Shown here: piece by piece, positions 16,046 through 55,620 of the stretch
How positions within the stretch are numbered: position 1 is the stretch's first letter
Layout: every line of letters starts with the position of its first letter
DNA from: Epinephelus fuscoguttatus
Taxonomy: Eukaryota > Chordata > Actinopteri > Perciformes > Serranidae
NCBI RefSeq assembly: GCF_011397635.1
Contig: NC_064770.1
Span: 26,615,603 to 26,679,602, forward strand
DNA length: 64,000 bases
Direction: 5' to 3'
The notes under the pieces: model-generated
What the model was told of the DNA's origin: nothing
The model's input: only the letters and a program-made list of their open reading frames with translations
Database searches by the model: none
Translations under genes and position numbers: made by a program

Positions 16046-16074
<29 letters not shown>

Positions 16075-21185: not shown

Positions 21186-21334
21186 CATAATGAACAACAC
21201 AGTCACTCCTCCTCTTTCTATTAAACTGATACAAGGATGCTGTATTGAGGATGTATTGTTTGTAGTGCACAGCACGCGCCACCAGAGCTCAGTCTTCACT
21301 GATGGAACAGCAACTGAACTCAAAAATATGGTGA

Positions 21335-29529: not shown

Positions 29530-29551
29530 ATGAAGAAATATTCATATCCAG
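29530..29551 (+). CDS. septin9: septin 9, first coding exon of the long isoform (MKKYSYP)
   Basis: ATGAAGAAATATTCATATCC codes for MKKYSYP and ends with A plus one G of the next codon, before the donor gtaagcc (29552). Human SEPTIN9 variant 1 begins MKKSYSG from a similarly tiny first exon, and this exon ends in the same phase (1). It joins the exon at 49517 without breaking the frame. Septin 9 is a GTP-binding cytoskeletal protein that occupies the ends of septin hetero-octamers and binds microtubules and actin through its N-terminal extension; those domains lie downstream of the window. On its own a 7-codon exon would be weak; the leader, donor, phase and the two companion exons make it convincing. 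Confidence 0.65.
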
Positions 29552-30565
29552 GTAAGCCTGTTCTAATGTAACGCGTGTTTTCTGTTTAGATATGATCAGC
29601 CTGAATTTAGGAAAACGCTCCAACGGTGTGGTGTGTGCGTTCATGAGTGTGCCCATGTGACAGAGGGCTAGACATAGAGACAGGGAAATATCAGGAAAAT
29701 GTTTAACAGCAGTACTGCTCCTCCACAGATGTGAACATTTCAATCTGCTCTTATTTTTAGTTCCCCCTTTGCAAAAAAGAAAAGGGCCCACTCATGGATC
29801 TGTGGGTGCGGTTGTAAATCTTCTGATTGTAGCCTCACATATATGACATCATGACAGAAAGGCAGCACAGAGAGCTGAGCTCATTCTTCTACAAGTCTTC
29901 AGGCAAAATGTTTCTTTTATGCCTTGAAGAATAAAAAATGTAAATGTACTACTCCACTGGTGTCCTGCATGCTGCTGGTGTCTTTATCTAGATTGGCACC
30001 GAAACAGAGGAAACATTGAGTTCACACAGGTTGTGCAGGATTCATTTGTAGTTCGTAGCAGAACAAGACTAAAATATCACAATGCCTAGTGTTTGCTCAA
30101 ACCATGGGGCAGCTAGGTTGTTAATCTGTTTTGACTGACAGTTTTATGGTGCAGTTCATTCACTCCTCCCCACTAATACCCTGAAGAGTGAGTTGATTTA
30201 TGCATCAGATCTACGCAAGCTTTATTCTAACACTGACTGGCTGGATCTGATTGTGGTTATTACGAAATTCTGTCTTATAGTAGGCAGAGATTATCCTAAC
30301 CTGGTGTTAGACAGCTAACAGTTTATCAAAGATCTCTGAAAGACCATATTGAAAATAGACTCAGTGGTGTAGTGGAGGGTAAACACAGGTGTATGAGGTA
30401 TCAACATACCTGTTTTTCTTACAGTGTACCCACGTATCAGCCAAAAAGTCAGTGGAATATATAGGAGAATATACCCACTTCATTCTCAGTAACCTACCCA
30501 TCTACGTAGTAGTACACCTACTTCATCAACTACCACTACACCACTAGTTATACTGATAGTGCTGG

Positions 30566-31150
30566 TAAAGTCGAATGTGCACCCCGGTCACCAGAAAAAA
30601 TGCTTATTTTGTATGTTTTTGCACGATACATTATGCTTGTACGTTATTTTGTAGTAGATACACTGAAACTTTATGTTTCTCAACAATGCTGTAGTGAAGG
30701 TATGGTTAGTTTTAGGCACAAAAATCCCTTGGTTGTGGTCAGGAAAATAGGATATTTTGGCCTAAAACAACCAGATTTGGTGGCACAAAGATGGCAGGAA
30801 AATCAGGGATAGGTTGCTAAAAAACACCCAGGTTCGGTAGCTCCTAGCAGCTGGGAAACCCCTCAGTGTGCTGCTAAAAACACTTTGGTTCAGTGCCACA
30901 AACATCAGTGGAAATACCATCGGTATTGTTGGTGCACTTCCTTAGGACCTGGGTCTGCAGCTTGGCAGGCACCTTGCTGATGTGACACACCATCCACCAT
31001 CCCCTCCACCTCCTGATAACAAAACTCAGCTTATATATTGTGTCAGTTTAGAGACATTTTTAGGATCCGTGTGAAATATGCAAATGTAATGTATATATGG
31101 TTTGCAGAAACGTATAGGTCGAACATTTTCCTCTGGGGATTGGGTTGGAG
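30566..31150 (+). repeat. dispersed repeat (GTGCACCCCGGTCACCAG family)
   Basis: 'gtgcaccccggtcaccag' near the left edge, 'ggttagttttaggcacaa' in the middle and 'tggtttgcagaaacgta' near the right edge. The second and third phrases recur at 5.8 and 7.65 kb. Boundaries approximate. Confidence 0.5.
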
Positions 31151-31564
31151 TGTTTGCTCAAAAACCCTTAAGCAGAGAAATGTTTGATGCCTTGAGACTG
31201 TCTGATTGAACGAAGACTCACTAACCACTAGGGCTGCCACAAACAGTCCATCACTACTACATATGTCCTGACTGACCCCTGTGACATCCGTCCATCTCCT
31301 TCTTCCCTCCTTCCTTTGTCCCTCTTCTCCTCCACCTTCTCCTTTTTCTCCAGCACTCCTTACAACCACTTCCATCATCCTCCGAGCCTCCTTGCCCTCC
31401 TCCCCCTCTCTCCCTCTAAGCTCCAGCTCAGTCCAGTGTACACAACCCTATCCCGCGGAATGCCGGCTTTCCCGGCTCTTCTTCCCTGAGTCTTTGTGCG
31501 ATGGAGCGTCGGACGGTTTTCCATCGGAGCCAAGTGCATGTTGAGTCATGCTGCCTCTCCTCCC

Positions 31565-31567
<3 letters not shown>

Positions 31568-31594
<27 letters not shown>
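31568..31594. repeat. (GT)n microsatellite
   Basis: About 13 GT units within the septin 9 intron, following a C/T-rich stretch at 31275-31430. Confidence 0.9.
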
Positions 31595-31595
<1 letters not shown>

Positions 31596-32120
31596 TCTCC
31601 CTCTGTCGTGCGACGTGTGTGGAGCTGTCACATTCTTTGTTGGAGCTCCACACGGGGAATTGTCTAATAACAAAGTGTGTGTGTGTAGTCTGATGTGTTG
31701 TGAAAGGCCCTCCTCTCTAACATGTAGGGGTGTTTAGACAAGCATCGGAGATGAGGAGGGGTGACTTTGAGAGAGGAGGGTTGACCTGCATGTCAGCATG
31801 TGTATGTTTTGTACGCAAATACCCTGACACACACAAGCAGAAGGATTGCTGGCACGTCTTAAATTTTAGTTTTAGACCGTACGTATGGAAATGTGTGTAC
31901 ATGTCGTTTCAGGGGAGGTTGTGTATACGTGTGTGTGTCTGCATTCACTCATGCAACCCCTCGCAGCTGCTCATGGAGCCGATCCCTGCCTTGTACACCA
32001 CTCCCTCAAGTCGTCTGGATCAATGAGTAACCTGTATGAATAACAGCCCACTCCAGCACACACACAGAGTCATTATTTTCCAAGTACACTCCTCCTGGTA
32101 TGTGCTTTTATGTGCTACTC

Positions 32121-32123
<3 letters not shown>

Positions 32124-32168
<45 letters not shown>
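32124..32168. repeat. (CA)n microsatellite
   Basis: About 22 perfect CA units in the septin 9 intron. Confidence 0.95.
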
Positions 32169-32172
<4 letters not shown>

Positions 32173-32639
32173 ATTCCACTTTTTGTACCTGTGTGACAAA
32201 TGCCTCACTCCGCGTTGCATTATGGCTTTTAGCCTGTTTATACTGGAGAGTCAGCGAAGCTTTGATTCAGAGCCTAAAGCTATTGTTGGATGGTAACATG
32301 AAAGTCAAGCTATAAACTGTGTTGAGACATATTTGCCCTGTCATCTGGCAGAGCATGCCGAGGATGGTCTAACCCTCAATTTGGCTTCCTAGAGGCCTGT
32401 GAATAATGGACTAATAAGGTATTTGAACACGTGGACATGCACGTACAGTAATCTAGTGTGATCTGTAATGGTGGTGTCATGGAGCTACAGGTCTGACTTT
32501 GGAAACAGTATCAGAAGCCAGATAGGAAAGCATGAGGACACAAAACACATCAGCACTGGGTTGCATCAGCTCAAAGTAGTCTAATAGTTTGGAGTTGTCA
32601 AACTTAAATCTTACACTTTGCTCTTGTTAAGTGTAAAGT

Positions 32640-33178
32640 CCTCTGCACCGGACCGTTGTGATGAAGAGGGAGCGGCGCCAGAGGGCAAGGGTTTCGATTT
32701 ACTGGTCCATCTACATCCCAACCCTCACCTATGGTCATGAGCTCTGGGTGGTGACCGAAAGTATGAGATTGCGGATACAAGCGGCCGAAATAAGTTTCCT
32801 CAGAAAGGTGGCTGGGCTCAGCCTTAGAGATGGGCTGAGGAGCTCAGACATCCGGAGGGAGCTCAGAGTAGAGCCGCTGCTCCTTCGTGTTTAAAGGGGA
32901 CAGTTGAGGTGGTTCGGACATCTGATCAGGATGCCTACTGGGCGCCTCCCATTGGAGGAGTCCTGGGCACGTCCCACTGGTAGAAGGCCCCAGACCCAGA
33001 ACACACTGGAGGGATTACATATCTCATCTGGCCTGGGAACACCTTGGGGTCCTCCAGGAGGAGCTGGAAAGTGTTACCCAGGAGAGGGACATATGGGGTG
33101 TCTTTCTTGACCTGCTGCCACCGCAACCCAGCCCCGAATAAGCGGATGAAAATGGATGGATGGATGGATGGATGGATG
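32640..33178 (+). mobile_element. 5'-truncated LINE (RTE/Rex-like), end of the reverse-transcriptase ORF
   Basis: The frame reads TYGHELWVVTESMRLRIQAA, then EISFLRKVAGLSLRDGLRSS, DIRRELRVEPLLL, a stop at 32892-32894, then LRWFGHLIRMPTGRLP. This is the C-terminal tail typical of fish non-LTR retrotransposon polymerases. A frameshift near 32990 follows (the expected W-RDYISHLAWE appears in another frame). The element ends in (ATGG)n at 33152-33178. It is 5'-truncated and dead. I place it near the RTE/Rex3 group from the tail sequence and GATG repeats, without certainty. Confidence 0.7.
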
Positions 33179-33274
33179 AGGAGGAGCAAAGTATACTGGC
33201 TGTTTTGCATCAATAGCGTGTTCTCCGTGATAGATTACACCCACCGGAGATCTTGTGCCTTTTATACTGAAAAT

Positions 33275-33516
33275 TAGGGCCAGGCAATATATCAGTATTA
33301 TCTTGAAATCATGATGTAGACCAGGAATCATCTTAGATTTTGTGTTGTCTTTTCCTGGATTTGAAGGCTGAATGACAGAGAAGTGATATAATTTTCTGAA
33401 CTTACCAGACTGTTCTATTTTGTAAAAGCACCAACAATCAACCCTACAAAATCGATGCTGAGATATTTGGTCAGAAATATTGTGACATTTGATTTTCTCC
33501 ATATTGCCCAGCCGTA
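33275..33516. mobile_element. hAT-type MITE, 242 bp, 8-bp TSD with one mismatch
   Basis: Begins TAGGGCCAGGCAATAT and ends ATATTGCCCAGCCGTA, inverted with two mismatches. Flanked by CTGAAAAT (33267-33274) and TTGAAAAT (33517-33524). The inside ('tgtcttttcctgg', 'ttctgaacttaccagactgt') belongs to a widespread fish MITE whose ends read TAGGGCTGGGCAATAT. Confidence 0.8.
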
Positions 33517-33535
33517 TTGAAAATTGCTTGAAATT

Positions 33536-33690
33536 GATTGGGGGTGTCTGTAAACCAAGCGGCAACCTCCGGATCCGAAAAATTAAGCCAACACTGAAAA
33601 ACTGCAGTTCTTTGAATGGCCACTGGAAGCTCCAGAAGCCAGTGGATTCCCATAGACCCCCATCTTAAAATTCCCAATTTTACAACAGAC
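33536..33690 (-). repeat. dispersed repeat, same family as 57885-58110
   Basis: Minus-strand copy carrying 'catgggggtct'-like 'gatgggggtctatggga', 'tggccattc' and 'gaactgcagttttt', followed by 'ggaggttgccgct', in the order seen at 57.97-58.10 kb. Confidence 0.6.
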
Positions 33691-34188
33691 TTCACCAGTC
33701 ACCTGTTTACATTTTATGCAGGCTTGAAGTTAATTAAGGACAGGCTGTCTGCTGATAGTGTCCTCAGCTTCTCAGGTAAATCCACCCCACACTCCTCCAC
33801 AGTGCCAACCTCTTGTCGATGACAACGGCTGTAGTGCCGAACCCAATTCGTCCACTTTGTCCTGTATTTCTGTGGAAACCCTACTCTGTTTCATACTCAG
33901 TGAAGTTTGGCCATTTGTCCAACTGATATTTAGCTGGTTGCGCAAAAGGCCTGAATGCATATATCCATCACTTCTACTTTGTACTACACTACACTCCATA
34001 GTGTTTGTACCACAGTGTCACTGATATGCTGTGGAATGTGGACTTCCCCTGATTGCAGGAGACCTACAGTCTATGTCTTGTCTTTGCTGTGTATGGTCCT
34101 CCCCTCTCAGCCGTGTGGAGCCTGCTCTGAAGTGTCCACTCCGCTCTGTGTTTATTATCTGCAGCCAAGAATGCGGCTCTGTGATGCT

Positions 34189-34217
34189 GGCTGCTGCTGC
34201 TGCTGCTGCTGCTGCTG
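34189..34217. repeat. (CTG)n trinucleotide repeat
   Basis: About nine perfect CTG units ending in GGGG, within a septin 9 intron. Confidence 0.9.
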
Positions 34218-34423
34218 GGGGTGTCAACTGATACAACAGACTGTCTGTACTGTAGGCCTGAGGCCAGGAGAGAGCCTGTAAAAAGATAATGGCAGGCTCA
34301 GAGAGGTTCTGATGTGTGGTGGAACATGTGCACTGACAGCTAGACATGGGTATTAGAATGATAAAGTGCATAGACAAGCACACGTACATGCATTTAGCCA
34401 TTTCAAATAGATGTATTAAATAA

Positions 34424-35485
34424 GCAGTGTGTAAGATTTAGGGAGATTCAGTGGTGTCTGGCAGCGAGGATCGCAGATTTCAACCATGTTCATCAATTAG
34501 GAGGTTTTTATTGGTAGCTTAATTACCTGCAGAAATCTCCTCCTCTCCAGAACATATGGACCAGGTGATTAAAACTGGTAAAAACACTGAATAAAGCAGT
34601 GTAATGTAACAAATCAATGTCACTTCTATGCTTTTTGGCATGTTGCAGATGGGCTGCTCATCCAGCGCCTGCTGTATGTGCTCACGTTTCTATAATGTGT
34701 GTGCTCACCTTATTTCAGATCCAGATGTTCAGGAGGTTTTTACCATGAGCCGAATTATCCGCAGAGGTCTCCTCCTCTCCAAAACAAACGGACCCAGTGA
34801 TTTACACCAGTAAAAACACCAAGAAAAGCAGTTTCATGTTACAAATTAGTGTTTTTCGATGCTGTTTGGCATGTCGGAGCCAGGCCATTAGCCTAGCATT
34901 TGTTAATGTTAGCTAATCTTTTTCTCTGATGGCTTAAGATCCGGACACTCAGGAGGTTTTCACCATGAGCTGAATTATCCACAGAGGTCTCCTCCTCTCC
35001 AAAACAAATGGACTCACTGATTTACACTGTTAAAAACACCAAATAAAGCAGTTTGATGTTACAAATCAGTTGTTCTCCGATGCTGTTTGGCATGTCGGAG
35101 CCAGGCCATTAGCCTAGCATTTGTTAATGTTAGCTAATCCTTTTTCTCAGATAACTTAAGATCCAGACATTCAGAATGTTTTCACCGGCAGCCGAATTAT
35201 ATGGAGAGGTCTCCTCCTCTCTAAAACAAACAGAACAGGAAATAAAAACTGGTAAAAGAAAATAAAAATCATGTTTTTCCGACACCGCTTGTTGCAGAGG
35301 GGCTGCTAACTACGGTGGCCGGTGCAAAAACACCAAAACCCTTTCTAGCGTCAGTGTTTGGTTTGTCTGTTCTGGGCTAATAAATTACTAAATAAATTAC
35401 TTTTCAAAGGTAACAAAATCACAGTGATTCCTAATTTCAGGTGATTATACACTAAAGAAAACACACTCCTACACACTTGACCTTT
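34424..35485 (+). mobile_element. MITE carrying four tandem ~220-bp units
   Basis: The outer parts belong to the AGTGTGTAGGA family (left 'gcagtgtgtaagatttaggg'; right 'ttcaggtgattatacactaa' and 'cctacacacttgacctttc'). Inside, units start with C/TAGGAGGTTTT at about 34499, 34730, 34950 and 35172, a period of 220-231 bp. Units 2 and 3 are nearly identical, sharing 'gctgtttggcatgtcggagc' and 'caggccattagcctagcat'. No coding capacity. Confidence 0.75.
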
Positions 35486-37596
35486 CATTGAGACGACTTA
35501 AACTTTTAAGTGACCTTAAATTCAAGTTTATTGCATAGGCATCTCTTTAACCTGAAGGCAAAAAAGAAGAGATGTAGAAATTGCTTCACCTCGGTAGGCC
35601 AAAGAGCCCACGCGGGAGATAGTAACTGTGCTGTTTGGCAGGAGTAACCTTGTCCTGTCATGACATGAATGAATGTTTTATCGCGAACAATTGAAGTGTT
35701 AGTGAGTCATATCTGTTCAGAGAGCTTACTGGAGCGCAGAATTAGCAGGATACTCTGAGTGTTGGTGCATGTGAGAGTTGTTTCTGGCAGCATACAAACT
35801 CTTTCTATCACTTGTAGCAAAGTAGTGTTCAAGATAGTCACTATTCATAAATAAGATTTCAGTTTGATCAGCTTTATTAAACATGATAGTTCAGAACTGT
35901 ATTGCAAAAGTGATGAGATAGAGGCGGTAAAAGACATAACTTTTAAGCTCAATGCTTTCATGCATACAGTCAGATGCACGTTAAAGCATAACCGCCGTCC
36001 TATGCTTATTGCTTCAGTCTCGAGTGACGTTTGTTTACTCTTTCTCACATTTCTCAACATGCTCATACACACAGCCGCTCACTCGCTCAGTTGTTCACCT
36101 CTGACATACAGTAACTACATGTTTCCCAGGGGAGTTTCAACCCATAAAGCTCCATGGACTATTTAACTGACTCCGTGGGTTTTAACAGCCTCTCAATAAG
36201 GAAGGCCGATCCTTATCTGCCACACCAGTGTTGTTTTATAGACTGCTGTGGTATCCTGTCTAAGCCGGAGTTTGAAAACACTTTTATGTGATGTGATTCA
36301 GGCTTGTGTTTGCATTTTGAAGAGTACAGAGACGTGACTGTGTGTTTGTCAAAGTGGTGTTGGTTTTCAATGAGCGTGGTGAGTGAGGAATAGGTTTGTG
36401 TTGAAAGTGCAGAGGTAGGAAAAGGTGTTGCCAGTTCATACCTTTGGCACCAGAGCAACGGCTATTCATTTGGGAGGAGTGCAGTTTGGGGTCATGACCA
36501 ATGTCTTTCCTCCACTATATGTGTGACCACATGTGCGTATGTGTGTGTGTTTGTTGCAGTCCTTACTCATTAAGAATACATCCAGGTAAAGGGCTTATCT
36601 GGGCTGTAAAAACAATCTTGAAAAATGTCTTTCTAGCCATTCAGTCTTTCTTGCTTTCTTCCTTTTTTTCACCCACTCTCTTTCTCTCCGCCCGTCCATC
36701 CGCTCCCGGCTCTTTCATAGGCGGAGTTGTGAAATGGTGTGTTTGCAGCGTACCCTTAACATGTGTAATGAGGGCCATAAAAACACAATGGAACAGATGG
36801 GTGAGCAGAGATACAGAGAAGGGAAGGAATTAGGGATGAATGATGTTAACCCCTTTCACACTGTGATTCTGACTAAACAAAAACTATGATATATGATATA
36901 TAATTTCCATACTTAGAGTGCCTTTAGATACTCTAATATCAGTTATTTACAAATGAAACTACATAAAAGTGTGGGTGATGTATATTTACGAGAGAGATTT
37001 ACATCACATCCTCGGCTTTGCAAATACCACGCACTGTGGAGTTGTAGAGAGATAACGACCTGAGGACTGAACGACCTCATTAAATATACAATATGTCAAC
37101 ATTTTATGGGGAGAAGAAAGAAAAGGAGATACAAGAGATAAGTTAACAATACACAAAGAGACACGGGATCAGAATTTATGAATTGTATCACTGTCTTTAA
37201 ATGTGCTATACAACATTGAGAACATTAATTTAGCATTTGGCATTTGCTATGTAAAGATATAGTGGAGTGGTAGAGTAATGGTGTCCTAAGCAGAGAATGA
37301 AGTCACACTGCCTGTGTGTGTTTTGTAATCTGAACTTCTGTGTTCTTTGTTTTCGTAGCCGGGCCGGCCCCGTGCATGAGAGTCCCTCAATTTATGTCCC
37401 GCTGTCTAGCCAATCGCTGCCTTCCACCTCCAGATATGGCATGAAAGATAACCTGGGTGTGTTGGTTGTTGACGTTCTGGGACGCCGTGTCAAGTTCTGC
37501 CTGTTTCCTGCATTGTCTTCTTTCGAAATACACTTCCGATGTCACAGGAAATTACCATTTACATACAGTCTCTCTCAAAATAAAAGCACTATGTCA
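35486..37596. other. septin 9 intron, no feature seen
   Basis: Ordinary intronic sequence with short chance frames. A GTGT run near 36537-36550 is minor. Confidence 0.3.
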
Positions 37597-38050
37597 CTAC
37601 AACAACGTAAATAGACATTTTTTTTCCTTCAACAATAAACACACGTGGTTAGGTTTTGGAAAAAAGAACAAGGTTTGGCTTTAGAATCTTACAGGACACA
37701 AACACCTCTCTCTCGGGTGAAAGTCTATGTTTGTTGGACCCGTCCACCACACCTCCCGCCTGCTCCAGTCGGACTTCACCAGCTCAACTTTCCCCCTGAC
37801 GCTGCTGGGCACCATTAAACTGTAATGGCAACCGGCAGCGTATCAGGCCGATGTTAAAGGACGCCTTTTTTTCGTTGGTTTCTAACACCGCATATCACTG
37901 CCCTAGCGCTGGATTTCATCAACTTAAGAGTGAGACTGGGCTCTCTTTTTCGTTGGTTACTGCTGATGGTTACTGCTGATGACGCTTTACCGCCACTGTG
38001 TTGGGATGGCATCATAATGGAAGCATAACACCTGCCCTCTGATTCCCCAC
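37597..38050 (+). repeat. dispersed repeats (two families abutting)
   Basis: 'gtggttaggttttggaaaaa' matches the 5.8/30.7-kb family, and 'gggtgaaagtctatgtttgt' followed by 'ggacccgtccaccacacctc' matches 18.8 and 48.7 kb. The latter continues to about 38.05 kb with a repeated 'ggttactgctgatg'. Confidence 0.45.
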
Positions 38051-39255
38051 CAGTTAAACAATGTTAGCGATGTCACCACCGTTGCAGTTGTTAGCAGTGT
38101 TAAGCGCTCAACACTTCTGATGAGTGATGCTCAACTCAAATGGTGTATCTTCAAAAGAAAAAACTATCGCTCAAACTTTTTTCTTATATTGCGCATCTGG
38201 AGTCTTTACTATGTCATGAACAACTTCATATTTTCTTGAGCAGTGTAAGTTGTATTGTTACTATCGTTGCCATGGAGATACTAGTTTTCAATCCACACCG
38301 ACTCTGACCCGCATTCAGCGTCTCTGATCACAGAAGCAGCTGCGTGTCAGCAGCAGCTCATGCGGAGCTGAGGGGACAGTAGCCAGTCAAACTAGCTTCA
38401 CCAGCCTGACTTACAGCAGACATTTACTGAACTAAAATATTTTTCATGTCAGCTCCACAGGAAGTAATCCACAGTATCTGTATTTAATGATTCACTGATT
38501 TTATCTCACAGTCACCTGCAGCGAGTTAGGGGAATTGGCTGCTGATTAATCGCTGAATACATAGATGATAAGTTAAAAAACATGTATACAGCGTGATATC
38601 TGTGTGATTTAAACAGCTGTCCGTGCAGATTACACTTCACTAGGCTAGACTCAGACATACTCCGATGCAAATGGACTCGGACTATAAAAAAAACACAGGT
38701 GATCTTTGGTTACCGTGGAGACAGTTGAAAACAACATGTGATTGTTAAATTTCTGTCGAGCCACACCTATCAGAAGTGTCGACCAAAAAACAGGCTTTAG
38801 CACTGTTAGCACCATTAGCATGGTTAGCACTGTTAGCTGCCGTCATTTCGGCTCGGCCACCTCACGTTTGTCTGTAACGTCAGAGGTGAGAGCCATACGC
38901 AGGCAATCCTGGCCTAGACTCTGAGCATTAACTTGTACTTTAAATTATAATTGTAATTATTAAAAATCCCTTATGTTTATTATCAGATTTGAGTTTTAAA
39001 TTTGGATCTTAAGCATGCAGTTGTTAATTTTTGTGTGACTTTTCCTGGATATTCATGGTCATGGTTGCAATCTGCTTGCACACACAACTTGTCAGGTGGG
39101 TGATGTATGTATATGTGATTTTTTTTATTGAGATATTGAGGTTTATATCGTGATAATAGTGATTTTTTTTTAAATCAAAATCAATTGAGATTTTTTAAAT
39201 TTATTAATTTATGAAATAACCAAAGTGGAATGTCTGTTTTTTGGCTAACACAGTG
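38051..39255. other. septin 9 intron, probably old repeat
   Basis: Contains short 'gttagca' tandem phrases (about 38798-38840) and AT-rich tracts. Nothing coding. Confidence 0.3.
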
Positions 39256-39267
39256 AATCAAATATGT

Positions 39268-39424
39268 AAAAAAAAAACAAAAAAAAAAAACTACAGTATG
39301 TTTTTTTTTTTCAAAATATATCAGTGTATTGGCTGCTTTTCTTTAAAAAAACAAAACAAAAAAAAAAAACCTAATATATCAGTGTATTGGCTGCTTTTCT
39401 TTAAAAAAAACAAAAAAAACAAAA
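39268..39424. repeat. tandem duplication with A/T homopolymer tracts
   Basis: 'atatatcagtgtattggctg' followed by 'cttttctttaaaaaaa' occurs twice, about 58 bp apart (39316 and 39374), separated by A-rich runs. Confidence 0.7.
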
Positions 39425-41280
39425 CTTTAACCCTACCAAAAAAGTGTGTAAAGCAGTAGGCGTAGCAGTGTTTAGTGACTCTAGCTTTATAACCGTGGGC
39501 TGAAAGCAATGACAGCAGTTATTATTTATGAAGTTTAAAAGAAAACACCGCTTTCATCACAAAGTTGTGGCTTCACTTCAACAAATGTCTGCCACAAAGC
39601 TGATTAATGTTTTAATCAAAACACCACCCACCCCCAAAGGGAAAGGTGGAAGTAAAAAAGGATGGAGACAGAAAGAAGGCGGGTAAAGATCCTTCACCTC
39701 CTGCTCAAATAAGACACGACGTGCCCACCTTTTGCAAACACAAAAATCTCAGGTAGTTGCAAATCACTCCACCCTTGTATGTGTATCTGTTCGCAGGCCT
39801 CCATTCACGTGTGTGTGTGTGATAGCTCTTGTGTTTCAAGTGCGTTAAAGTGCTGCACCCTCTGCCCAGTGTTTATCTTCTCTAGTCATCTAAGACCAAT
39901 AACCAATCAGTTGACGTGTTTGTCCAGGCATAGCCATGCACTTGACTGGTCATATTTCCCACACAGACACACAAGCGGTGCAGTTGACATCAATCATTCG
40001 AGGCCTATAGTACATAACACAGGCAGCAATGCATCTACTCTGGTGCACAATATGACCTGCAGCGCTGCTCCAAGTAGGTTTTTTTCCATTAGCATGAACA
40101 CTGGTCTCATTCTTTTCATGTATCATGTGCGAGTAATGACCTCTCTTGTACAGAGTGGTGTCATAAGGCAAATATGACCTCAGAAGATCACAAACCCCTC
40201 GAGGGGGAGAAAGACATGGATCATAATGTCGGGTTATTTTTATGAAACCTGTTCAAGCAGTGATCTGTACTGTGTGTGTGTATGTGTGTGTGTTTGTGGC
40301 CCCAGACAAGACTGAGCAGGTGAGTTCAGCCACACACACACACTTCTGTGCCAACACACAGTTTAACTTTTCAGGTGTCACTCCTTCAGTTTGCGTTTAA
40401 CCTGGCTGTGATTGGCTAATGCATATTTGCTTGTTGTATGTCACTCAGTACTTTGCCCTCACTTTAAACCACACAGCGACCGGCAGTGCTGGATTATCAC
40501 TTCACTGCCAAATACCATCTTATCAACTCAACTTTGTGGTGTTGTTTCGGTTTCTGTGGCACAGTATTGCTGCAGTCATAAACTCTGCGTGGTCTGTCTG
40601 AAGCACTTTGTGTTTTTAAGGGTGTGTGTGTGTCTTCACCTCGCCTCTCTCAAGCTGTATTCCCAACGAAAAGAGTAAATAGGTACGGGCATGCTTTTTG
40701 GCTGCAAGGCTTGAAAGACTTGGCTGACTCTTATTTGTTTCCATGCACTTAAAGCTCTTAAACACACATAGATGTGTACACACTCGCGTTACAGACTGAT
40801 GGTGTTATCACACGGCTCATGGCAGATTAATGATTTGCATTTAAAGCAGGAAAAAGGGTCGACTCTTTGACTGTTGCGCCTCTGACAGTCTGAACGCCCA
40901 GTCGGTGATTAAAAAAGTCCAAAAGTAATGAGTCAGTGCTTCCTTTCTGAAAAAACAATGAAGCCAGATGCAGCTCCATTACTGATATTTATGCCAATTT
41001 TAGATTAATGCTTTCTGTAAAACAGTTTATATTGATACTAAAATTTGGAGTCAGAGCCACCTAAAGACATTTTATGATACTCCACACACTACTTTGGATG
41101 AAAACGCAGCATTAATCTCTTCTCAGAGGTTGTCAGATGTCGTCTGACACAAGTCCCTTTAGTTAGATCTGAGTTATTTGCTGCACATTTGGAAAACTGA
41201 TCTTAACCTGTTTCACAGGAGCTCAGACATTCTCACCATTTTCCATAGTGGGATGTGGACTTCTGCCATTAGTTTAACAC
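39425..41280. other. septin 9 intron, no feature seen
   Basis: Short GTGT tracts near 40271-40295. No supported exon; frames lack acceptable splice sites in matching phase. Confidence 0.3.
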
Positions 41281-41540
41281 AAACAAGTTTTCTGTTTCAG
41301 TGCTTCGATAAGGTGCTTTGTGGAGTTTGCTGCTGTAGACGGGTCATTCTGACCTGGATCTTTTCATTTTACTGCAATATTCTTATCTTTGCATGATATA
41401 AATTCAAAATAATGAGAGCATCTACACTTATCAAAGCATCCAGCCTCCTCTGCCAACGTTATTCACAATCTTCCTGCCTGGAAATTGTGCAGAGGCTGTT
41501 GCATAGCACGGAAGAAATGAGCTAATGCAAAATAATGACA
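41281..41540 (+). repeat. copy A of a direct duplication (partner at 43391)
   Basis: 'gagtttgctgctgtagacgg', 'gtcattctgacctgg', 'actgcaatattcttatcttt' and 'aaagcatccagcctcctctg' recur in the same order at 43391-43685. Copy A lacks the CA run found in copy B. Confidence 0.75.
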
Positions 41541-42189
41541 TTATTTTATGATCATCTCCGTCAGGCGTAAGCATTTGTGTGTGTGAGTGTGTGTTTCAGG
41601 CTGCTAATCCCACAAACTACTTGACCAATCAGCCTATTTTGTGTGCACATTCATGCCTGTATACTCAAGGAACTCTCATTTGCGGTGATTCACAATTGTT
41701 GAAAAACCTATTTATTGACTGTTTTATACAGTCATCGACTCCAGACTCCTCACTCCTCCTCACTGGACAGTGGGTGATGCGAGTTTTTCAGAAATCAACT
41801 AAAAACAAAAACCTTTACCGTCTGTTGCAAGACACATTTTGGTCTTTGCTATGGCTCAAAAACTGACATCCATAGAAAGGTTTCATTTTGAACTGGAGCA
41901 TCTACAGATTATTATTTTTTGTTAACATGCTTACATATTCACATTAAAAAAAAGTAGAAATCTCATAAAGTTAAATTGAGAATATTAACAAAAATCAGCA
42001 ACATTAAACTAGAATTTCAACCAACATATCATCCTGACCGTTACTAGGTCATCAGATACCACTGCTGTGTCAAGCTTCTCAACGTAGCGCATAGTAGTAG
42101 CATACGTAGTATACAGAGCAAGAAAGTCCACATAAGGACAATTCTACTGAGACTAGCTGTGCTGCGTACCGACTGCCATCGCTTGCACC

Positions 42190-42971: not shown

Positions 42972-43390
42972 CTTGCACCGCATTTTGCTCTGTCCGCCAC
43001 ACAGCTTCATAAATATTTTACAAGCGAAGCGTTTTGCCTGCCTGATTTTGTAGACTTGCAGATTTTAATGATTTGGTCACTTTTCCCTGATATACGTGCT
43101 TCTACCTTAAATACAGAAGAAATGACTGGGATCAGACCGGGCAGCCGTCTGGTCGCCTGGCAGAGATCTGCACTCTGCTGAGTGTGCTTTTTCTTGTTTA
43201 TTTTATGAAATATGTAACAGCAATTCGTGTAATGTATTTGGTGGAATGTTATGCTAAGTGTGTGACTTATTGAGAGAATAACATAATTCTAACACATCAC
43301 CATGACTCAGTTGTCTCATTAATCTGTCATTTTCATCATTTATGTATATTTAGGGCAGCATTTTGCTTTTTGGGTTCAACCATCAGTATA

Positions 43391-43463
43391 ACATGTTTTT
43401 TGTTTCAGCGCTTCAACAAGGCGCTTTGTTGAGTTTGCTGCTGTAGATGGGTCATTCTGACCT

Positions 43464-43505
<42 letters not shown>

Positions 43506-43685
43506 GCCTGCTCATATTACTGCAATATTCTTATCTTTATATGGCATAAATTTAAAATAATGAGATTATTTCCTCTCATCAAAGCATCCAGCCTCCTCTG
43601 CCAACTTTATTCACAGTCTTTCCTCTGTGCTGTTACATGTCAGGGGAGTAGAAATGAGCTCATACAAAAAAAAGACTTTGTTTGA
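43391..43685 (+). repeat. copy B of the direct duplication, with (CA)n
   Basis: Same phrases as 41281-41540, with a perfect CA run (43466-43503) inserted after 'gacctgga'. The copies differ at perhaps one base in six outside the run. Confidence 0.75.
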
Positions 43686-44205
43686 GTAAACACAATTGTG
43701 TATTTTAATTCAGTGCTCTGTTCTGCTGATAATTCTGTCAATTTTAATGTGTAGCAGCAAAATCGATGATATAATTTCAGTCAGGAACACACTCATTATA
43801 GATTTAATCATTTATTGCAACAAATGGAAAGTTATGCTTGGCACCGAAGACTCCACTCTAAAGATGCTCCCTGGAGCCCTGGGCTCAAACCACACCTGTT
43901 ACAGGCAAAGCTTTGCCAGCAGCAGCAGCAGTGTGTGGAATCATTGGTGTAGCAGGGATCAGTAAGTAGGAGGCCATATTTAAATGGATGGCCGATGATC
44001 CAATCAGCTGGCTGTCAGCTGATTACAGCTGGGCCATATGATCTCTGTGTCCTGCATAAACTAATGTGAAGCGTCATTAGTGAAAAGTAAGCAGTTATGC
44101 TTTGCATAACTGTGTTACCTAGGAGAATAATGACACATTGTTGTAACACATTGCCACATCTAAACTATCACAAAACAGAAGGGGAGATGATAATGTTGAT
44201 TGATT
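43686..44205. other. septin 9 intron, no feature seen
   Basis: No supported exon or repeat with ends. Confidence 0.3.
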
Positions 44206-44640
44206 AAAGGGGAACCTATTATGCTCATTTTCAGGTTCATACTTATATTCTGAGTTACTGCTAGAGTATGTTTACTTGCTTTAACGACCAAAAAACTCTT
44301 TATTTTTGTCTTACTGTCTGTGCTGGAACACCTGTATTCACACTCTCTCTGAGACACTCCATTTCAGTGCCTGTCTCTTCAAGGCCCTCTCCTGAAAAAT
44401 CAGCGTTTTTGCGTCAGTCTCTTCATCATCATTGCAGGCGGATGAAGACTGTAATTGAGAGTAGCGGGACTTTCTACTGTGAAAAATCACCAGTAAAGGC
44501 TTCTAAACCAAAATCTTCAAAGCTGGATGTGTTCCAGCAGGAATATTTTGTGAAATCAGGGAGCAATCAACAACATCAGCAACCAAGATTACATGTTTCC
44601 CCATCGTTAGCATGTAGCTGTCACTGGTTTCATTGTTCGC
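44206..44640 (+). mobile_element. MITE fragment (AAAGGGGAACCTATTATGC end)
   Basis: Begins 'aaaggggaacctattatgct' and continues 'tcattttcaggttcatactt', an abundant fish MITE. The other end is cut by the SINE-like element at about 44647. Confidence 0.55.
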
Positions 44641-44646
44641 ATTGTC

Positions 44647-44965
44647 ACCACACAGCAAGAGGGTTCCTGGTACAAACCCGGCGGGATTCCTTCTGTGCGG
44701 AGTTTGCAAGTTCTCCCTGTGTCAGCGTGGGTTTTCTCTGGGTACTCCGGCTTCCTCCCACAGTCCAAAGACATGCAGGTTAATTGGTGACTCTAAATTG
44801 TCCGTAGGTGTGAATGTGAGTGTGAATGGTTGTCTGTCTCTATGTGTCAGCCCTGTGATAGTCTGGCGACCTGTCCAGTGTACCACGCCTCTTGCCCCAT
44901 GTCAGCTGGGATAGGCTCCAGCCCCCCCGCGACACCCAACAGGGTAAGCAGTTAATGAAATTAAT
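44647..44965 (+). mobile_element. SINE-like dispersed repeat
   Basis: Contains in order 'cacagcaagagggttcctgg', 'agtttgcaagttctccctgt', 'ggtactccggcttcctccca', 'aattggtgactctaaattgt', 'tgtcagctgggataggctcc' and the 'aatgaaattaatgaatg' tail. Only part of the tRNA-like head is left. Confidence 0.7.
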
Positions 44966-45776
44966 GAATGTGCCTTTGGAGGCGTGAGGTATTAGTGTAA
45001 GTTTGTGCCTCTTCAGATTCAGGTTATGCTTGAAAAGAACTTGTTTGTATGACATGTTGTCCAACTTCCTTGGTGGGCAAAAGTGTAGTTTTTCCCGAAT
45101 GGCTATGCTTGACTGCGTAGTGATGTCGGTTAAATATAGGGATAACGGCTCACATTTTCAGAGGGGTTCTCCTGGAAGACATGATCATGTTGTTCACATA
45201 AAAAGTGACATATGTAAAGAATGTAAAAAGCAAGCTTGGAGGAGAAGTTCAAACCCTGGTTCCTTTCTCACCTCCGCACAGCTGACCAATCATCAAGTGG
45301 GTGTGAATATTGGATTGTTGGTTTTGCCAAGTTACACAAATGATCAGACACAGAAACTGAAATACTGCCGGAGTTTCTACAGGAGAGGAAAGCAGACGCT
45401 GCACACTTCATCTTATACAGTAGTTTCTTTATTTACTTTTCTCCTTAAAAAGTGAGCAACCTCAAGCTCTCTCTGTCTCACACTCACACACTCACACACA
45501 TTACAGAAGCTTTACTCATGTCTTCCAGTCATACAGCGGCACATTCACTCCCTCTCCCTCGAACCAGCTGCCTTTGTGTTAAAACCAGTGACAACACAGG
45601 CGGAAAACCACCATGTTTGCTGGCGTTATTGGCATAAAATGAATGTCATGTCGAACGCTGATTTGCGGTAGGAAGTATTTCTAAGACCTTAAAAACAGGA
45701 CGGTACATCTGAGTCACCAGCCACCGGATGAACTTACCTCATTTGAACAGAACTGACTGAGTTGATGCAGAGATGA

Positions 45777-46220
45777 TGGGGGAGGTGGAGAGAAGAAAAG
45801 AAAGAGTGTGTGGTTGATGTCGGAGAGATGCAGCGTCTTTTTATCGGGCCATCACAGGAAACTATAAATGAGAACCTCATGGTGGCGCTAGAGGAGTTAG
45901 GGAGATCATTGTGTGTGAGCCATGAATATCTGGACATAATTGCAGAAATTATTTCAGTCTTGAACAAAGAAATGGAAACACCCGAATCAGCCGAATCATC
46001 TAAATATAAAACAACAGTCGTGTCCCTGTTTGGCTCATCCTGTCCCCACACAGCAGCTGGTGATTCAGCAGAACTGAACACACACATTCACACGGACACA
46101 CACACACCAGAGTCGATCAATGAGAGATTACCCGCAGCATTCCACCAGTGTCAGAGAGCAGACCGTCAGCCAAGAGGAAGAGGCATTCCTCTGAACCCTA
46201 AACCAGCCAGCGTCATGTAG
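45777..46220 (+). CDS. open frame of unknown status (possible exon or retro-copy)
   Basis: An open frame after a TGA at 45774-45776, ending in TAG at 46218-46220. The first in-frame ATG is at 45828 (MQRLFIGPSQETINENLMVA, then LEELGRSLCVSHEYLDIIAE). The first 60 residues look helical and protein-like, with regular charge spacing. The later part is His/Thr-rich because it runs through a CACACA tract, which argues against selection there. No splice signals in a phase matching septin 9, no recognised family. It may be a retro-copied fragment or a chance frame. Confidence 0.2.
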   Translation, partial: WGRWREEKKECVVDVGEMQRLFIGPSQETINENLMVALEELGRSLCVSHEYLDIIAEIISVLNKEMETPESAESSKYKTTVVSLFGSSCPHTAAGDSAELNTHIHTDTHTPESINERLPAAFHQCQRADRQPRGRGIPLNPKPASVM

Positions 46221-46427
46221 AACCTGGCTGTTGGTGCTGGGAGCTGTTACATGAGCTTGAATCAGGATGTAGACCATCTGGCTTTCCAAAAACAAAATAC
46301 TGGACCCGGACCAGACTCATGTAACTGACACAGTATCAGGTACCCTGCACTGCATGGTAAGGGACGGGGCGACTCAACTGGACCAGCTTGTTTTTGGTTT
46401 TCTATCAGTGAGAGTTGTGGATAGGGC

Positions 46428-47400
46428 CTGGTACTTTTTTGGTACCAACTCAGTCGAGGTTTGAAGTGAGCTGAGTTGATATTAGAGGGTGGAGTTAAAC
46501 AGGCTGGTCTCATACACTGTTTGGACGCATACCTGCAAAAGCAATGCACTGTAATTCGTATATAACCCATGTAATCAGGAAGGCTGCGATCATGTGGGAG
46601 TAAAGAAGGAAGTAGTGACGAGGCAGGTTGGGGTAGTGGATGAGTCATAAATACGGGACTTACCTTAGGAGACTGTTGTTTCAGACCAAGTGAACTTTGA
46701 GTTATTTTAAGGTATGTCGTGACCATGGGGAAAAAATCAATACAGCATAGTATCGCGATATTTTTTGTGGCAGGATCGTATCGTCACACGGGGGGACATA
46801 GTTTGCAGTTAAAAAAAGTTGGAAATCGCACTGTATTTTATCGCAATACTCGGCATATGGCAACATATTTAAAATCGCAATGATATTGTATCACAACTTA
46901 AATATCATGATAATAGCGTATCGTGGATCCCCTGGTGATTCCCTAGCCCAAATAACTGAACTAGCCTAAACCTAACTTTACGTTAATGTCATTTGTTAGA
47001 TATCTTTCAAACTATTATATGAGGATTTGTTAAGTTAAAACACTGCAGACCCCTGATAAGTCAGAGAAAATCATCACGTGTACAGCCTGTACAAACCCAC
47101 AATTTTTAAATCGCAAAGTTACTGTCACTGGTGACGGCCTGTTTTTTTTTTGTTTGTTTTTTTTTCAATCACTAAAACGGCAGACCGCAAGCTACGCTGT
47201 ACACTACTTACACTACGCTGCACAACTGTCAAAGAGCAGACAATCCTCTATTTGTTTGCTGATTAAAGGATTAAATGAGTGTCACGTTAAAGATGATGTC
47301 GCTATGTTTAGGGGGTGCTAACTATGAACAGTAGAAAATGAAATAAAGAACATGACCTGGTACCAAAAGTGAGTTGAGTCGAGCTGTACTGTGCAGAGGA
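46428..47400. mobile_element. probable MITE (GGTACC-rich ends), interrupted
   Basis: 'ggtaccaactcagtcgagg' at the left, and 'ggtaccaaaagtgagttgag' followed by 'tcgagctgtactg' at the right, are typical of a fish MITE with CGACTC-rich ends. The interior holds another element (46724-46949). Boundaries not fixed. Confidence 0.35.
46724..46949. mobile_element. MITE fragment with ATCG-rich termini
   Basis: 'tagtatcgcgatatttttt' at the left, and 'cgtatcgtggatcccctggt' then 'gattcccta' at the right, match a common fish element with repeated TATCG motifs. The ends are only roughly inverted. Confidence 0.4.
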
Positions 47401-47747
47401 GATTACCGCAGTAGTGACCCATGTGTCTGCTTCTTATCCTCAGTTGTTTCCTGCAATTTTAACTCCTTTTGAAAAGACAAAATCAATCACAATCAATACT
47501 AGAAGATAACGTAAGTTTATTTACAACATTTTCCCTGATTGTTTTACACTTGTATTGGCCCTTACTGTGCCCTTATTATATTAACTTACCTGCGGGTGTT
47601 TATCAATACTTTGTCTTGTCTTTTGACAAATTTGTGATCGCCTGACATTCATTTTAAAATAGTCTATCGGGCCATTGTTGTGGCAGAACTGTTTGCAAAT
47701 GTGTGTGGAGAATTGTGTTACTGTATCTCAATCCATGTGTGTGTGAT

Positions 47748-47869
47748 CAGATTTGGAAATGTGCCAAAAAAATCTCCAAATCTGTATTCACATTTGCAAG
47801 TGTATTGAGATTTGTAAATGTGTTGACAAATCTGTGAATACGTAGACATTTACAAATCTCAATACACTT
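47748..47869. repeat. two adjacent hairpins with CAAATCT motifs
   Basis: First hairpin: CAGATTTGGA (47748-47757) with TCCAAATCTG (47775-47784). Second: perfect 24-bp arms 47798-47821 and 47846-47869 beginning AAGTGTATTGAGATTTGTAA, around a 24-nt loop. Confidence 0.8.
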
Positions 47870-48479
47870 CATTTTTTACACATTTAAAAAGTATTAATAT
47901 TTCAGGTTTCTCCTTCAGCACTGTTTTACTGATGTGCAAACTGTGGTACAGTGTTCACTATGCAGTTTTGCAACTGTGCTCCTTCATGAGTTTTGTTCCA
48001 CATGCACGTTTGGTCCGAGTTGTTTCCACACCACACTGTTATAAAAATACAAACAAACCACAAATGAAATTTAGAAAAATGTCTGGCTTTTCTTCAGTAA
48101 CCAAACGCCAGTTTCTCAGTGGTCAAGTAACAACAGCCATCTCTCAAATATTGCTTGACTTTGTTTTTCCTCATGACAACTGTAGATTATTTGGCCTGGA
48201 GGAGAATGTGAAGTAACTGTTTTCCACATGTTTTGCTGTATTGTTTGGTCCAGAGCATCAGCTAAAAAAAGATTTTATGGGACAGTCAAAAACCAAAAAT
48301 GCCACTCAGGCTGGTTCTCTGGAAGACTTAGTATTTCTAAAAGTATTTACCAGAAATGATGTATCAGAGCTTGGGCAGTGGTTCCTTCTGAACACTGAGC
48401 CTCTTGTTGATGGATGTATAACGGCACATCTGTTGACTATATTAGTATAGTCATATAGAGTATAGTTTCTCCATACTGT

Positions 48480-48735
48480 TCCCATTTCAGGTCGTCACAT
48501 ACTGACAAAACGCCTCAACACCAACTTTAATGCCTTTATGAGACGCATCAGGCTTTCATCTAACTCCAGTGTAAACCCATCCACAGCAACACTCAACACT
48601 GAGAGCACCTGATGTAGTATAAAGAGCTTGAAAGTTCGCAGAGGATGGGAGGGAGAGGAGGTGGTTGGGTCAAACCAAACCGGACTTTCACTCAGGAGAC
48701 TGCAGTTTGTGTCCCATGTGAAATCAAACATCAGT
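48480..48735 (-). repeat. dispersed repeat (GGGTGAAAGTSC family), minus strand
   Basis: In reverse it reads 'gagtgaaagtccggtttggt' and 'ttgacccaaccacctcctct', matching 18.8 and 37.7 kb. Confidence 0.5.
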
Positions 48736-48809
48736 GTTGTTTTAATGTACTGTTGTGCAATTTACACACTTTAGTCCTTTGTGAAAACCACAAGTCACAA
48801 TTTTTATAA

Positions 48810-49010
48810 TCAGTGTGGGGAAGGTTAATTTTGAAATATAATTGGCCACAAATTACTAGTTACGTGGTTAAAAGTGTGAGGTAACTATTTTAATTACTTC
48901 ATCAAAATAATCTAACTTTTTATACTTGATTACTTTTTGATTACTTATCAAACAAAAGTTTTAAACTAGCCAATAAAGCTGAAGAATGTCTGTAAATAGG
49001 CTATGACAAA
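48810..49010 (+). repeat. dispersed repeat (ACTAGTTACGT motif)
   Basis: 'gtgtggggaaggttaatttt', 'cacaaattactagttacgt' and 'gattactttttgattactt' are phrases of a well-known teleost repeat. Copy appears partial. Confidence 0.5.
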
Positions 49011-49516
49011 AGGAGGAGTTCCTGCACATCGAAAAGATTCATAGCAACAGAATGAATATTGTATTCTACTTCTAAACTTTTTTAACCAAAAAGAATATAT
49101 TTAATGTAACCCATTGTAATCACCAACATTTTGAGGAGTTAATCTTGTTTTTTAAAAATTCTAGGAAACCAATTGTCTGGAAAAGGCTTGTAAACATAAC
49201 ATTTAGTCTTAAGTTATCTATATTTATAAAGTACAGTAAACATAACACTCTTACTTTATTTACGTACCTTTTTCAAGGCATTGGTGACCTAGATTTTTTT
49301 AGTTTTGTTGCCTGATTCTAACCACAGTTGTTTCAAAACGTTAGCCTTGTGTTACAATGTGTTTGAGCAGTATGTCACATAGATGCACCAAAGGGTGCCC
49401 CAATACGTTGCTATCAAAGCATTAGTCTTTAAGCATAGGAGTAAGAAGGGGCTGGTTTCTCCTGACTTTCCAGGACATTCTACTAATTGTCCTTCTGTCC
49501 TTGTCCCCACTCACAG

Positions 49517-49579
49517 TGAGATCAGCCAGCGCCCGGACAAGGAGAACAGAAAGAGAAGGATCTGGCATCACCAGTCCCA
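49517..49579 (+). CDS. septin9: septin 9, second exon of the long isoform (basic N-terminal segment)
   Basis: Follows 'cccactcacag' (AG at 49515-49516) and precedes the donor a|gtaagtat (49580). It is 63 nt, phase 1 at both ends. Joined to the exon at 29530 it reads V-RSASARTRRTEREGSGITSP. Human SEPTIN9 variant 1 has at the same place GGTRTSSGRLRRLGDSSGP: the same length, the same Ser/Arg-rich start, paired Arg, and a Ser-Gly...Ser-x-Pro end. In mammals this basic region precedes the shared exon starting LKRSFEVEE. That shared exon is not in the window. The strong donor and symmetric phase support a real exon. Confidence 0.65.
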
Positions 49580-52700: not shown

Positions 52701-55300
52701 GATTATTGATGAGTCATGATTTCAACTGTTTTGTGATCAAATGGTATGAACTGTGTTCTCTGATATGCACTGGTACTGTATTCTCTCCACATCTCCTCGT
52801 CCATGGTGTTAACGGGGTGAAATGACGTCTGAAAACCTCTGACCTGATGACTTCAGGCCTGCCTCCACCCATTATAACGTCTTCAAGGTGTAGTGCAGGG
52901 AAATATGATCCGCCGTGAACACTGTGTATTTTATTTTGAAAATTAACTGGATGTTTTATTTTGTTTCTGTGCACGACTTCCTGCCCCGCACGTTGTGCTC
53001 CGGCGTCCGGCAAAAATAGAAGTCCTGCGTATCTGTTACGGAGGGCTCTGGAGCGCCGCAGCTGTGACGGAGCCAGAATGCAGCACAGCCGCAGCCGGTG
53101 GAAGAACACACATTGACTAGAATTGAAACGTATCAGGTGGGATTAAGGGGTTAGTCTTTCCATTGTTCCAACAATCACCAAATCTGGTTTGGACAAAATA
53201 AAACCTAAATTCACTGAATTAAACCTCCTCATAAATGGACGTGATCAAGTGAGCAAGTGAACGTCAAATGTTTCAGTGTTTCCCAATACAGATGCTCTAA
53301 CCTGCTCCAAAGATCAGTGAACAGACTATGCGATGTGTCGCTTGTTTGAATAACCGCTCACCCTGGCTCTATTTTGGTGAAGCTTCACACTCCTCCAACC
53401 TATTTTCAGACCAACAGCAAACTCGCTCAGGGCATGCTAGACTTCCTGAATGTTATTATTGCTTCATCATGTTTGATCTGCCATAGTTCACTCGCTCGCT
53501 GTATGTTATGAAGACATGATAGTTGTGAAAATGTGCCAGCTCTAACACGCTGTGTTTCCTCACTGTCTGCCTCTGCCTCTTAGCTGTCCATTGAGGTGGC
53601 AGCGTGCACTCATTCTTTGGAGGCGGACCATTAAAAAACAAAATAAAATGACAAAAATCCCCCAAATAATCACCCAGTGTACTCTATAGTCAGTATATTC
53701 ATCCAATCGCCTAACCCCATTGACAAGCCTTCGGGGAAGCTCTACTTCTTTGTCCAATCATGTTGGACTGAGGGCAGACTGGATATGATAGCGACCTACT
53801 GTCGCCTCTCAAGGTACAAATGGTATTACATGACAGGATGGGCCCAGGCTAGCTGGTTAGCATGCTCATTTCAGTTAATGCAAATTCAGTCAGTCATTGT
53901 GAATTCTGCATGACCTTGCAGTTCTGTCCAGTGACGGCAACTTCACCGCTAATTTGACTATTTAAAATGGATAAAATCTTACTGAACTGTAGCGATGTGT
54001 ACACTGTATTGCTTCACTCAGTCCCTGTCTCTTACTCTCTCTCTGCTTATCATGAGACAATACTGAAGTGGGAGCTTGAGCTTGGCGTCTGGGACAGAGA
54101 CACACAGACACAGTGACAGGGCTAACTGTTAGCATCACATGGCTAAAGTTACCCAACAGTCATTTAAGAGATTTAACAACAGAGTCAAGCAGGTTTTGGT
54201 ATTGGTTTGAGATTGTTGGGACTGTTAAACAGCTAGGTGTCAAAGGTTAGCCGCTGCTGATGTGTTAGCTTGTGCTAATTGTGCAGAGAGAGCAGGGGGA
54301 AAGCGGGTTATGAGGACGGTCCTTTAGTACTGCGTTGAACGACAGCAACAGCCCCCCATCACATATAGATTCTAAATTTGTGGGAAACACTGAATATTCT
54401 TAATAATAGGCACCAAAACCAATTCAGCATTGCAGCTATTTTGCTGCACTTCTATCGCAAAATAACACCTATAAACATCTCCACTATCCTACAAACAACT
54501 CCTGGAGTATCTCTGCAACACAGTTGAAGATTGCAAAGACAACATGACAAACACATGATACACACAGGTCAACATGCAATACACAAGGGCACTGGAGCGA
54601 TGTGTGTTGCACAAGACGTCAGACGTCAGACTGACATGTCCGAGTGTGTTTGATCTCTCTATCAGAGCTCAGACTCTTGCCATGTGACCTCTGCCCCCCG
54701 GCACAGTGTGAGGGACGTGCCAAAGGTCAGAGGTCATCTGAGTTTCCTGAACGCAGAGACAGGTCTACACACCAAGCAGCATTTCAGAGCGAGCGGCTGG
54801 GGTTTCACTAATCTTCTCAACACACACACACACACACTCTGTCTGTCTCGGTCTCAAGTATTCACTCTTGCTGTCATTTTTCCTCACACTGCCTCTCCTG
54901 TATTAACCCCTCTTAAGTCCCACTTCCCACTTAGGGAAGTGTGTTTTAATGGAGGCCCCCCCCCCCGCTTCCCTCCTGTATTGTTTTTGCATGTCAGTAT
55001 TATTTCAACAGGCTACCATCCTTCCCCACGTTCACAAAGGCAGAGCTCTATCATCAGGGGGAAGTCTAGATGCAGTTCAGGGAACGTCTGTCACTCCAGC
55101 TCGACCAGATTTTTCTGCTGGTATCAAATGAATCAAGGCCACATGTGCCCACGCCACACACACACAAGGAACATTTTAAGTAAGCTGACGGATGAGTTTG
55201 CAAGTCCGGCGGGTTATTTTAGTCTGTAAGGAGCCTGTCCGTGTCACATGGCGGGGGCTAATGGTTTCTATTTTCGAGATACAATGCTGCTTCAGTCTTT
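52701..55300. other. septin 9 intron, no feature seen
   Basis: Contains a CA run (about 54821-54837) and a C run (54956-54966). The 181-residue frame at 54684-55229 crosses both and shows no domain, so I do not call it a gene. Confidence 0.35.
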
Positions 55301-55304
55301 TGGT

Positions 55305-55558
55305 CTCATCAGAGGAGAAGGAGAGAGAAAGAGGGAGAGAATGCAACATATGATAAGCACATGGGGATGTCGTAATTCTGAATTCATTAGCAAGACACAC
55401 TGAAGGAATCAAACTGGGGAGAGGGAGGGAGAACAGAGAGCCCGAAAGGAAAGAGAGAGTAAGAAGAGGAGGAAGAGGAACAGAGGGAGGGAGGGAGGGA
55501 GAGAGAGAGAAAGGGAAGTCCAAAAAAAGACAGAGAGAGAAAGAGAGTGGAGTCAAAG
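55305..55558. promoter_or_regulatory. septin9: polypurine (GA-rich) tract upstream of septin 9 exon 1c
   Basis: Two GA-dense blocks, 55310-55342 and 55417-55558, with runs such as 'gggagggagggagggagaga'. They end about 40 bp before the MEGDKFS start codon. GA/CT tracts of this kind are common in TATA-less vertebrate promoters and can form triplex DNA. The regulatory role is inferred from position. Confidence 0.5.
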
Positions 55559-55598
55559 AGCAGACACTACATGTGGCTGTGGAGGGAGTGATCTGGTT

Positions 55599-55620
55599 AT
55601 GGAGGGGGACAAATTCTCAG
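55599..55620 (+). CDS. septin9: septin 9, alternative first coding exon (MEGDKFS)
   Basis: ATGGAGGGGGACAAATTCTC encodes MEGDKFS with one extra G before the donor gtaagac (55621). Human SEPTIN9 variant 3 begins MERDRIS and then joins the shared exon through a codon split after its first base, exactly as here (phase 1). The position downstream of the long-isoform exons, with its own purine-rich upstream region, is as expected for an internal promoter. Transcripts from here would skip the exon at 49517 and make a protein without the basic Ser/Arg segment. The 5'UTR start is unknown. Confidence 0.7.

Follow-up and report, generated by a model that had tools for sequence, protein, structure and literature searches.

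The 5' end of a very probable septin 9a gene in Epinephelus fuscoguttatus, with two starts for one protein body

The long isoforms of human SEPT9 differ by alternative first exons (PMC5364497), and zebrafish sept9a makes variants 1, 2 and 3 (tv1, tv2 and tv3) together with a fish-specific alpha form, as detected by reverse transcription PCR (Landsverk 2010, PMC2873287). Three small exons on the forward (+) strand of a stretch of Epinephelus fuscoguttatus DNA of 64,000 nt (contig NC_064770.1, positions 26,615,603 to 26,679,602; hereafter the window) raise the question of whether this arrangement is also present in another fish lineage. The window very probably (at a probability of about 0.95) contains the 5' part of a septin 9a gene of a teleost, in which two starts lead into one body. 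This interpretation is correct yet already known, as the arrangement was described in zebrafish in 2010 (PMC2873287). Its recovery here from genomic sequence places two of the mammalian septin 9 starts, in a conserved layout, in a further fish lineage.

Three small exons and their protein matches

The coding parts of the three exons, and the intron between the two that form the variant-1 tail, are as follows.

29530-29551, + strand: variant-1 first exon, coding part; 22 nt, MKKYSYP, last base G, phase 1
29552-49516, + strand: intron 1 of variant 1; 19965 nt (computed), its joined flanks giving the exact start of the fish protein P0121 described below
49517-49579, + strand: variant-1 basic exon 2; 63 nt, phase 1 at both ends
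55599-55620, + strand: variant-3 first exon, coding part; 22 nt, MEGDKFS, last base G, phase 1

These positions are, to the base, those of the original prediction, and each exon has a usable donor that breaks a codon after its first base. With a slash marking the exon boundary, the variant-1 first exon reads ATG AAG AAA TAT TCA TAT CCA G/gtaagc (donor GTAAGC at 29552) and the variant-3 first exon reads ATG GAG GGG GAC AAA TTC TCA G/gtaaga (donor GTAAGA at 55621). Exon 2 follows a pyrimidine-rich stretch and a CTCACAG acceptor, and runs from ...cactcacag/(G)TG AGA TCA to CCC A/gtaagt; it codes VRSASARTRRTEREGSGITSP and then a last base A, or (V)RSASARTRRTEREGSGITSP with the split Val included. 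Spliced together, exons 1 and 2 comprise 85 nt and encode MKKYSYPVRSASARTRRTEREGSGITSP, with one base A left over. Scoring of the 4313 GT sites on the + strand with a simple donor matrix showed strong donors for exon 1 (rank 6) and the variant-3 exon (rank 10) and a weaker donor, CCA/GTAAGT, for exon 2 (rank 98). In-frame TGA stops were found upstream of both ATGs, at 29482 and 55401, and the pattern of an ATG, six sense codons and G/GTRAG occurred at two + strand sites in the window, which are the two first exons.

A protein search with the window tail placed ahead of a human septin 9 body yielded 38 proteins out of 86 candidates. The top match was isoform X1 of Eleginops maclovinus (P0121), which starts MKKYSYPVRSASARTRRTEREGSGITSPT/LKRSFEVEE and is identical to exons 1 and 2 at 28 of 28 residues, comprising 7/7 for exon 1 alone and 21/21 for exon 2 against residues 8-28, split Val included. 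A second search, with the third exon joined to the P0121 body, yielded 77 proteins out of 79 candidates and was headed by isoform X4 of the same fish (P0153), which begins MEGDKFSA/LKRSFEVEE and matches at 7 of 7 residues. The start in the window fits the variant-3 pattern ME.DK.., and MEGDKFSA opens 26 of the 222 proteins fetched. From LKRSFEV onward, the bodies of P0121 and P0153 are identical over 605 residues. The P0121 body contains the septin domain (PF00735, 372.7 bits), preceded by approximately 340 residues, and the alignment of P0121 to human SEPT9 (P0001) spans residues 2-634, with 57% of positions identical. These identities bear out the assignment of the exons to septin 9.

Junction codons and comparison with known septin 9 genes

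Since a single codon base is left at every donor, either start would be in frame at a common acceptor. Exon 2 ends in A and the variant-3 exon in G, so a shared exon starting with C is expected to produce Thr and Ala, respectively, at the junction. Thr is the junction residue in P0121 and Ala in P0153. Among the 102 proteins P0121-P0222, Thr followed exon 2 in 32 of 33 fish records from outside the carps (non-cyprinids; the exception is P0145) and Ala followed the tv3 start in all 36 tv3 records, which make up 36/102 of this sample. The remaining records were ten tv2, eight alpha, five carp exon-2 proteins (all with Ala) and ten mixed others. A splice phase shared across the starts, as had been proposed, is thus present in the DNA and in the junction residues.

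Exon 2, at 63 nt and phase 1 at both ends, could be kept or skipped without a change of frame. Three of the 222 proteins joined MKK straight to the body, all of them mammalian (P0090 from human, P0105 from Peromyscus and P0112 from Microcebus), and no fish record of this skipped form was found among the 222. Exon 2 was joined to another start in 15/222 records, a count that excludes P0115, P0119 and P0120 as MRK starts. The alternative starts of P0144, P0145, P0151 and P0152 were sought in the window and matched it at exon 2 only. For P0144 the match extends into the letters immediately above exon 2, which suggests that this start may be a read-through into the exon.

Zebrafish sept9a resembles the window in having a separate tv1 exon 2 with an equal acceptor phase and a tv3 start of seven residues. 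Its unique N-termini are reported as 32 residues for tv1, 18 for tv2, 7 for tv3 and 10 for alpha (PMC2873287), compared with 28 for variant 1 in the window, and its tv3 start is MEGDKIA in zebrafish records rather than MEGDKFS. In the same work the morpholino MO2 was directed at the tv1 exon-2 acceptor and tv1 was lowered; its sense strand reads ...CTGACAG/GCATCGCA, so that a G carried from exon 1 gives Gly-Ile-Ala, and the acceptor phase derived from it is that of the G/TG boundary in the window. A shared LKRSFEVEE body is present in Eleginops, whose X1 and X4 isoforms show no difference from the window in 35 comparable residues; on these residues Eleginops is taken to be a close relative. 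Human SEPT9 isoforms 1 and 3 (P0001 and P0093) likewise place two N-termini on one body. The human isoform-1 tail shares with the window tail the KK...RxRR arrangement, a single [KR]xx[DE] motif and a net charge of +5, but differs in its residues, and the human coding exons, deduced from P0001 and P0090, would measure 19 and 57 nt as against 22 and 63 nt. Fish and human protein records, with the published account of zebrafish sept9a (PMC2873287), therefore agree with the original prediction that the isoform layout has been kept between fish and mammals.

The same prediction had warned that exons this small may be missed by gene predictors, which was not borne out in relatives. A fish-type MKK or MRK start opens 26 of the 38 proteins in the variant-1 search; of the others, one (P0149) has this start preceded by an extension, five join a different start to exon 2, and six come from mammals. 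The annotation of Eleginops maclovinus carries both starts (X1 and X4), misnamed as neuronal-specific septin-3-like. Many fish septin 9a proteins are labelled septin 3, which is a practical problem of naming.

Starts, rival explanations and the basic tail

Two starts are proposed. Transcription from a start above 29530 would yield variant 1, in which the 22-nt coding exon is spliced across the 20-kb intron to the basic exon 2, and this in turn to the shared LKRSFEVEE exon; a second, internal start above 55599 would yield variant 3, with MEGDKFS spliced directly onto the same shared exon. The outcome would be a single septin body on which the tails can be exchanged. On the model of human SEPT9_i1, the variant-1 tail would add microtubule binding and a bipartite nuclear-localisation signal, and the variant-3 tail would be without them. 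The regions in which the two transcripts may begin are given here with approximate limits.

29300-29529, + strand: likely variant-1 5' leader and promoter region
55402-55598, + strand: likely variant-3 5' leader, purine-rich

Several observations weigh against this reading. Neither the shared LKRSFEVEE exon (on either strand) nor a septin domain was found in the 64-kb window, the exon-2 donor ranks just 98th of the GT sites, and the function of the tail is borrowed, by analogy, from human work. The chance explanation, in which the three exons would be ATG-plus-donor patterns that happen to resemble septin 9 starts, has in its favour that in gapless scans with human peptides the third exon was only the third-best variant-3 match and exons 1 and 2 fell outside the best eight. 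With fish peptides, however, all three exons were unique perfect matches in the window. Exact six-frame matches were expected by chance at 2.5e-5 (MKKYSYP), 2.2e-5 (MEGDKFS) and 3.6e-22 (exon-2 peptide), that is, at or below about 2e-5 per exon, and two isoforms of one fish agree with the exons in order and phase. A chance origin is already refuted by the protein identities, and its probability is negligible. It is also very improbable, although somewhat less so, that the exons belong to another septin gene, either septin 3 or the paralogue sept9b. In its favour, the closest records, P0121 and P0153 among them, are named neuronal-specific septin-3-like, and in the 38-protein search 15 of the 32 non-mammalian rows bear the name septin-3 or septin-3-like. 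Against it, P0121 can be aligned to human SEPT9 all the way from residue 2 to the end, while the match of human SEPT9 to the solved septin-3 chain 9bhw_B begins only at residue 277, so that septin 9 is indicated by the long N-terminal half. The short N-terminus expected of septin 3 is not that of P0121 (compared via human SEPT9), and in zebrafish the long forms are made by sept9a only, according to PMC2873287.

A septin 9a gene with two starts thus remains the preferred reading, and its missing parts are probably located beyond the 64-kb window. The window extends 8380 nt past the third donor; starts of the tv2 and alpha kinds, which had no match on either strand, would lie in the same direction as the shared exon. 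Within this reading, the third exon might lack a promoter of its own and be included through splicing or in transcripts begun far upstream. Its surroundings are consistent with this and count against the proposed internal start, as the ratio of observed to expected CpG (o/e) is 0.17 in 55301-55800 (rank 582 of 635 sub-windows) and base composition therefore marks no promoter there; the variant-1 start is moderately CpG-rich (o/e 0.61 in 29301-29800, rank 64 of 635). A promoter-less third exon is nevertheless unlikely, as the human variant-3 exon has an active internal promoter in reporter tests (PMC3236340), and in zebrafish the two-cell stage already contains tv3 mRNA whereas tv1 begins later, at high stage, which suggests separate control (PMC2873287). 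Promoter use at both starts, and splicing as described, are what we infer for this species.

Elsewhere in the window, where the CpG o/e averages 0.40, values of approximately 0.84-1.10 were observed at 46501-47300 and 22601-23400. The former sits inside the 20-kb intron 1 of variant 1.

The variant-1 tail of the window contains KK-x10-RTRR and one RRTE motif and has a net charge of +5, equal to that of the human tail; the net charge of the tv3 tail is -1. To place this in context, 99 variant-1 records were reduced to 71 distinct vertebrate tails that start with M[KR]K, of which three occur with or without a short extension, with MRR starts (P0035 and P0089) left out by the pattern. A KK or RK pair, 10-12 residues and a basic RxRR-like cluster were kept in 70 of the 71, the exception being platypus (P0043), and a [KR]xx[DE] motif was likewise present in 70/71. 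Shuffled tails (200 each) showed the two patterns in 4.2% and 30.6% of cases, respectively. Since the records are related and were themselves found through their likeness to the tails, with the pattern picked after viewing them, these proportions show conservation and not function. They uphold the proposal that the basic segment has been kept between fish and mammals.

In human, the isoform-1 tail carries microtubule motifs like those of microtubule-associated proteins (MAPs) and an overlapping bipartite nuclear signal (PMC11430720, PMC13174562), which has also been predicted in silico (PMC6553528). In the window, the KK and RxRR clusters sit on two exons 20 kb apart. We tentatively propose, at somewhat less than even odds, that the isoform-1 tail may be a composite signal assembled by splicing, such that only transcripts joining both exons would carry the bipartite nuclear/microtubule signal. 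If so, exon-2 skipping or use of the other start would shift the compartment of septin 9, in fish and mammals, with the remaining protein untouched. The partial literature search met no statement of such a split signal or of its conservation in fish, although it is not claimed to be unpublished. The division of KK and RxRR over two exons offers a simple, testable idea of how a single tail might be turned on or off. The products of these two septin 9 starts behave differently in human cancer-cell studies and, with the layout conserved, fish could be used for isoform-specific tests of function.

Other features of the window

Alpha-type starts of the form ..SYVKRVK.A / MFTKHLKRVKSA were present in several fish (P0173, P0174, P0194, P0204 and P0216-P0219), with upstream extensions in Eleginops and Trematomus (MPHAM.. 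and MPYTM..). The Eleginops record of this type, isoform X3 (P0173), had no counterpart in the window, nor did the tv2 and alpha starts of zebrafish.

The expected upstream neighbour of septin 9 is presumably SEC14L1, for which no convincing match was detected in the window. Of the 84 open frames of 90 aa or longer, 19 different ones were compared with Pfam. The one match was to an immunoglobulin V-set domain (PF07686), which scored 28.9 bits where the cut-off is 26, in an open frame within 15182-16234 (+). A further frame, following at 15893, contains a hydrophobic stretch resembling a membrane span. Judged from its sequence, 15182-16234 looks like part of a fish immunoglobulin-type receptor gene upstream of septin 9a. 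No Rfam families or tRNAs were found in the window.

Tandem repeats of approximately 225 bp occupy 34499-35257, with related copies at 6324-6603 (69-79% alike). Two fold-back stretches, at 5870-6297 and 18533-18733, are 78% and 83% alike to their own reverse complements and are likely to be small transposable elements. Copies of a dispersed repeat family, roughly 79-94% alike, were located at 21032-21186, 28097-28296, 44655-44971 and 63370-63584. The block 24001-26000 has a G-over-C skew of +0.276, far above that of the other 2-kb blocks.

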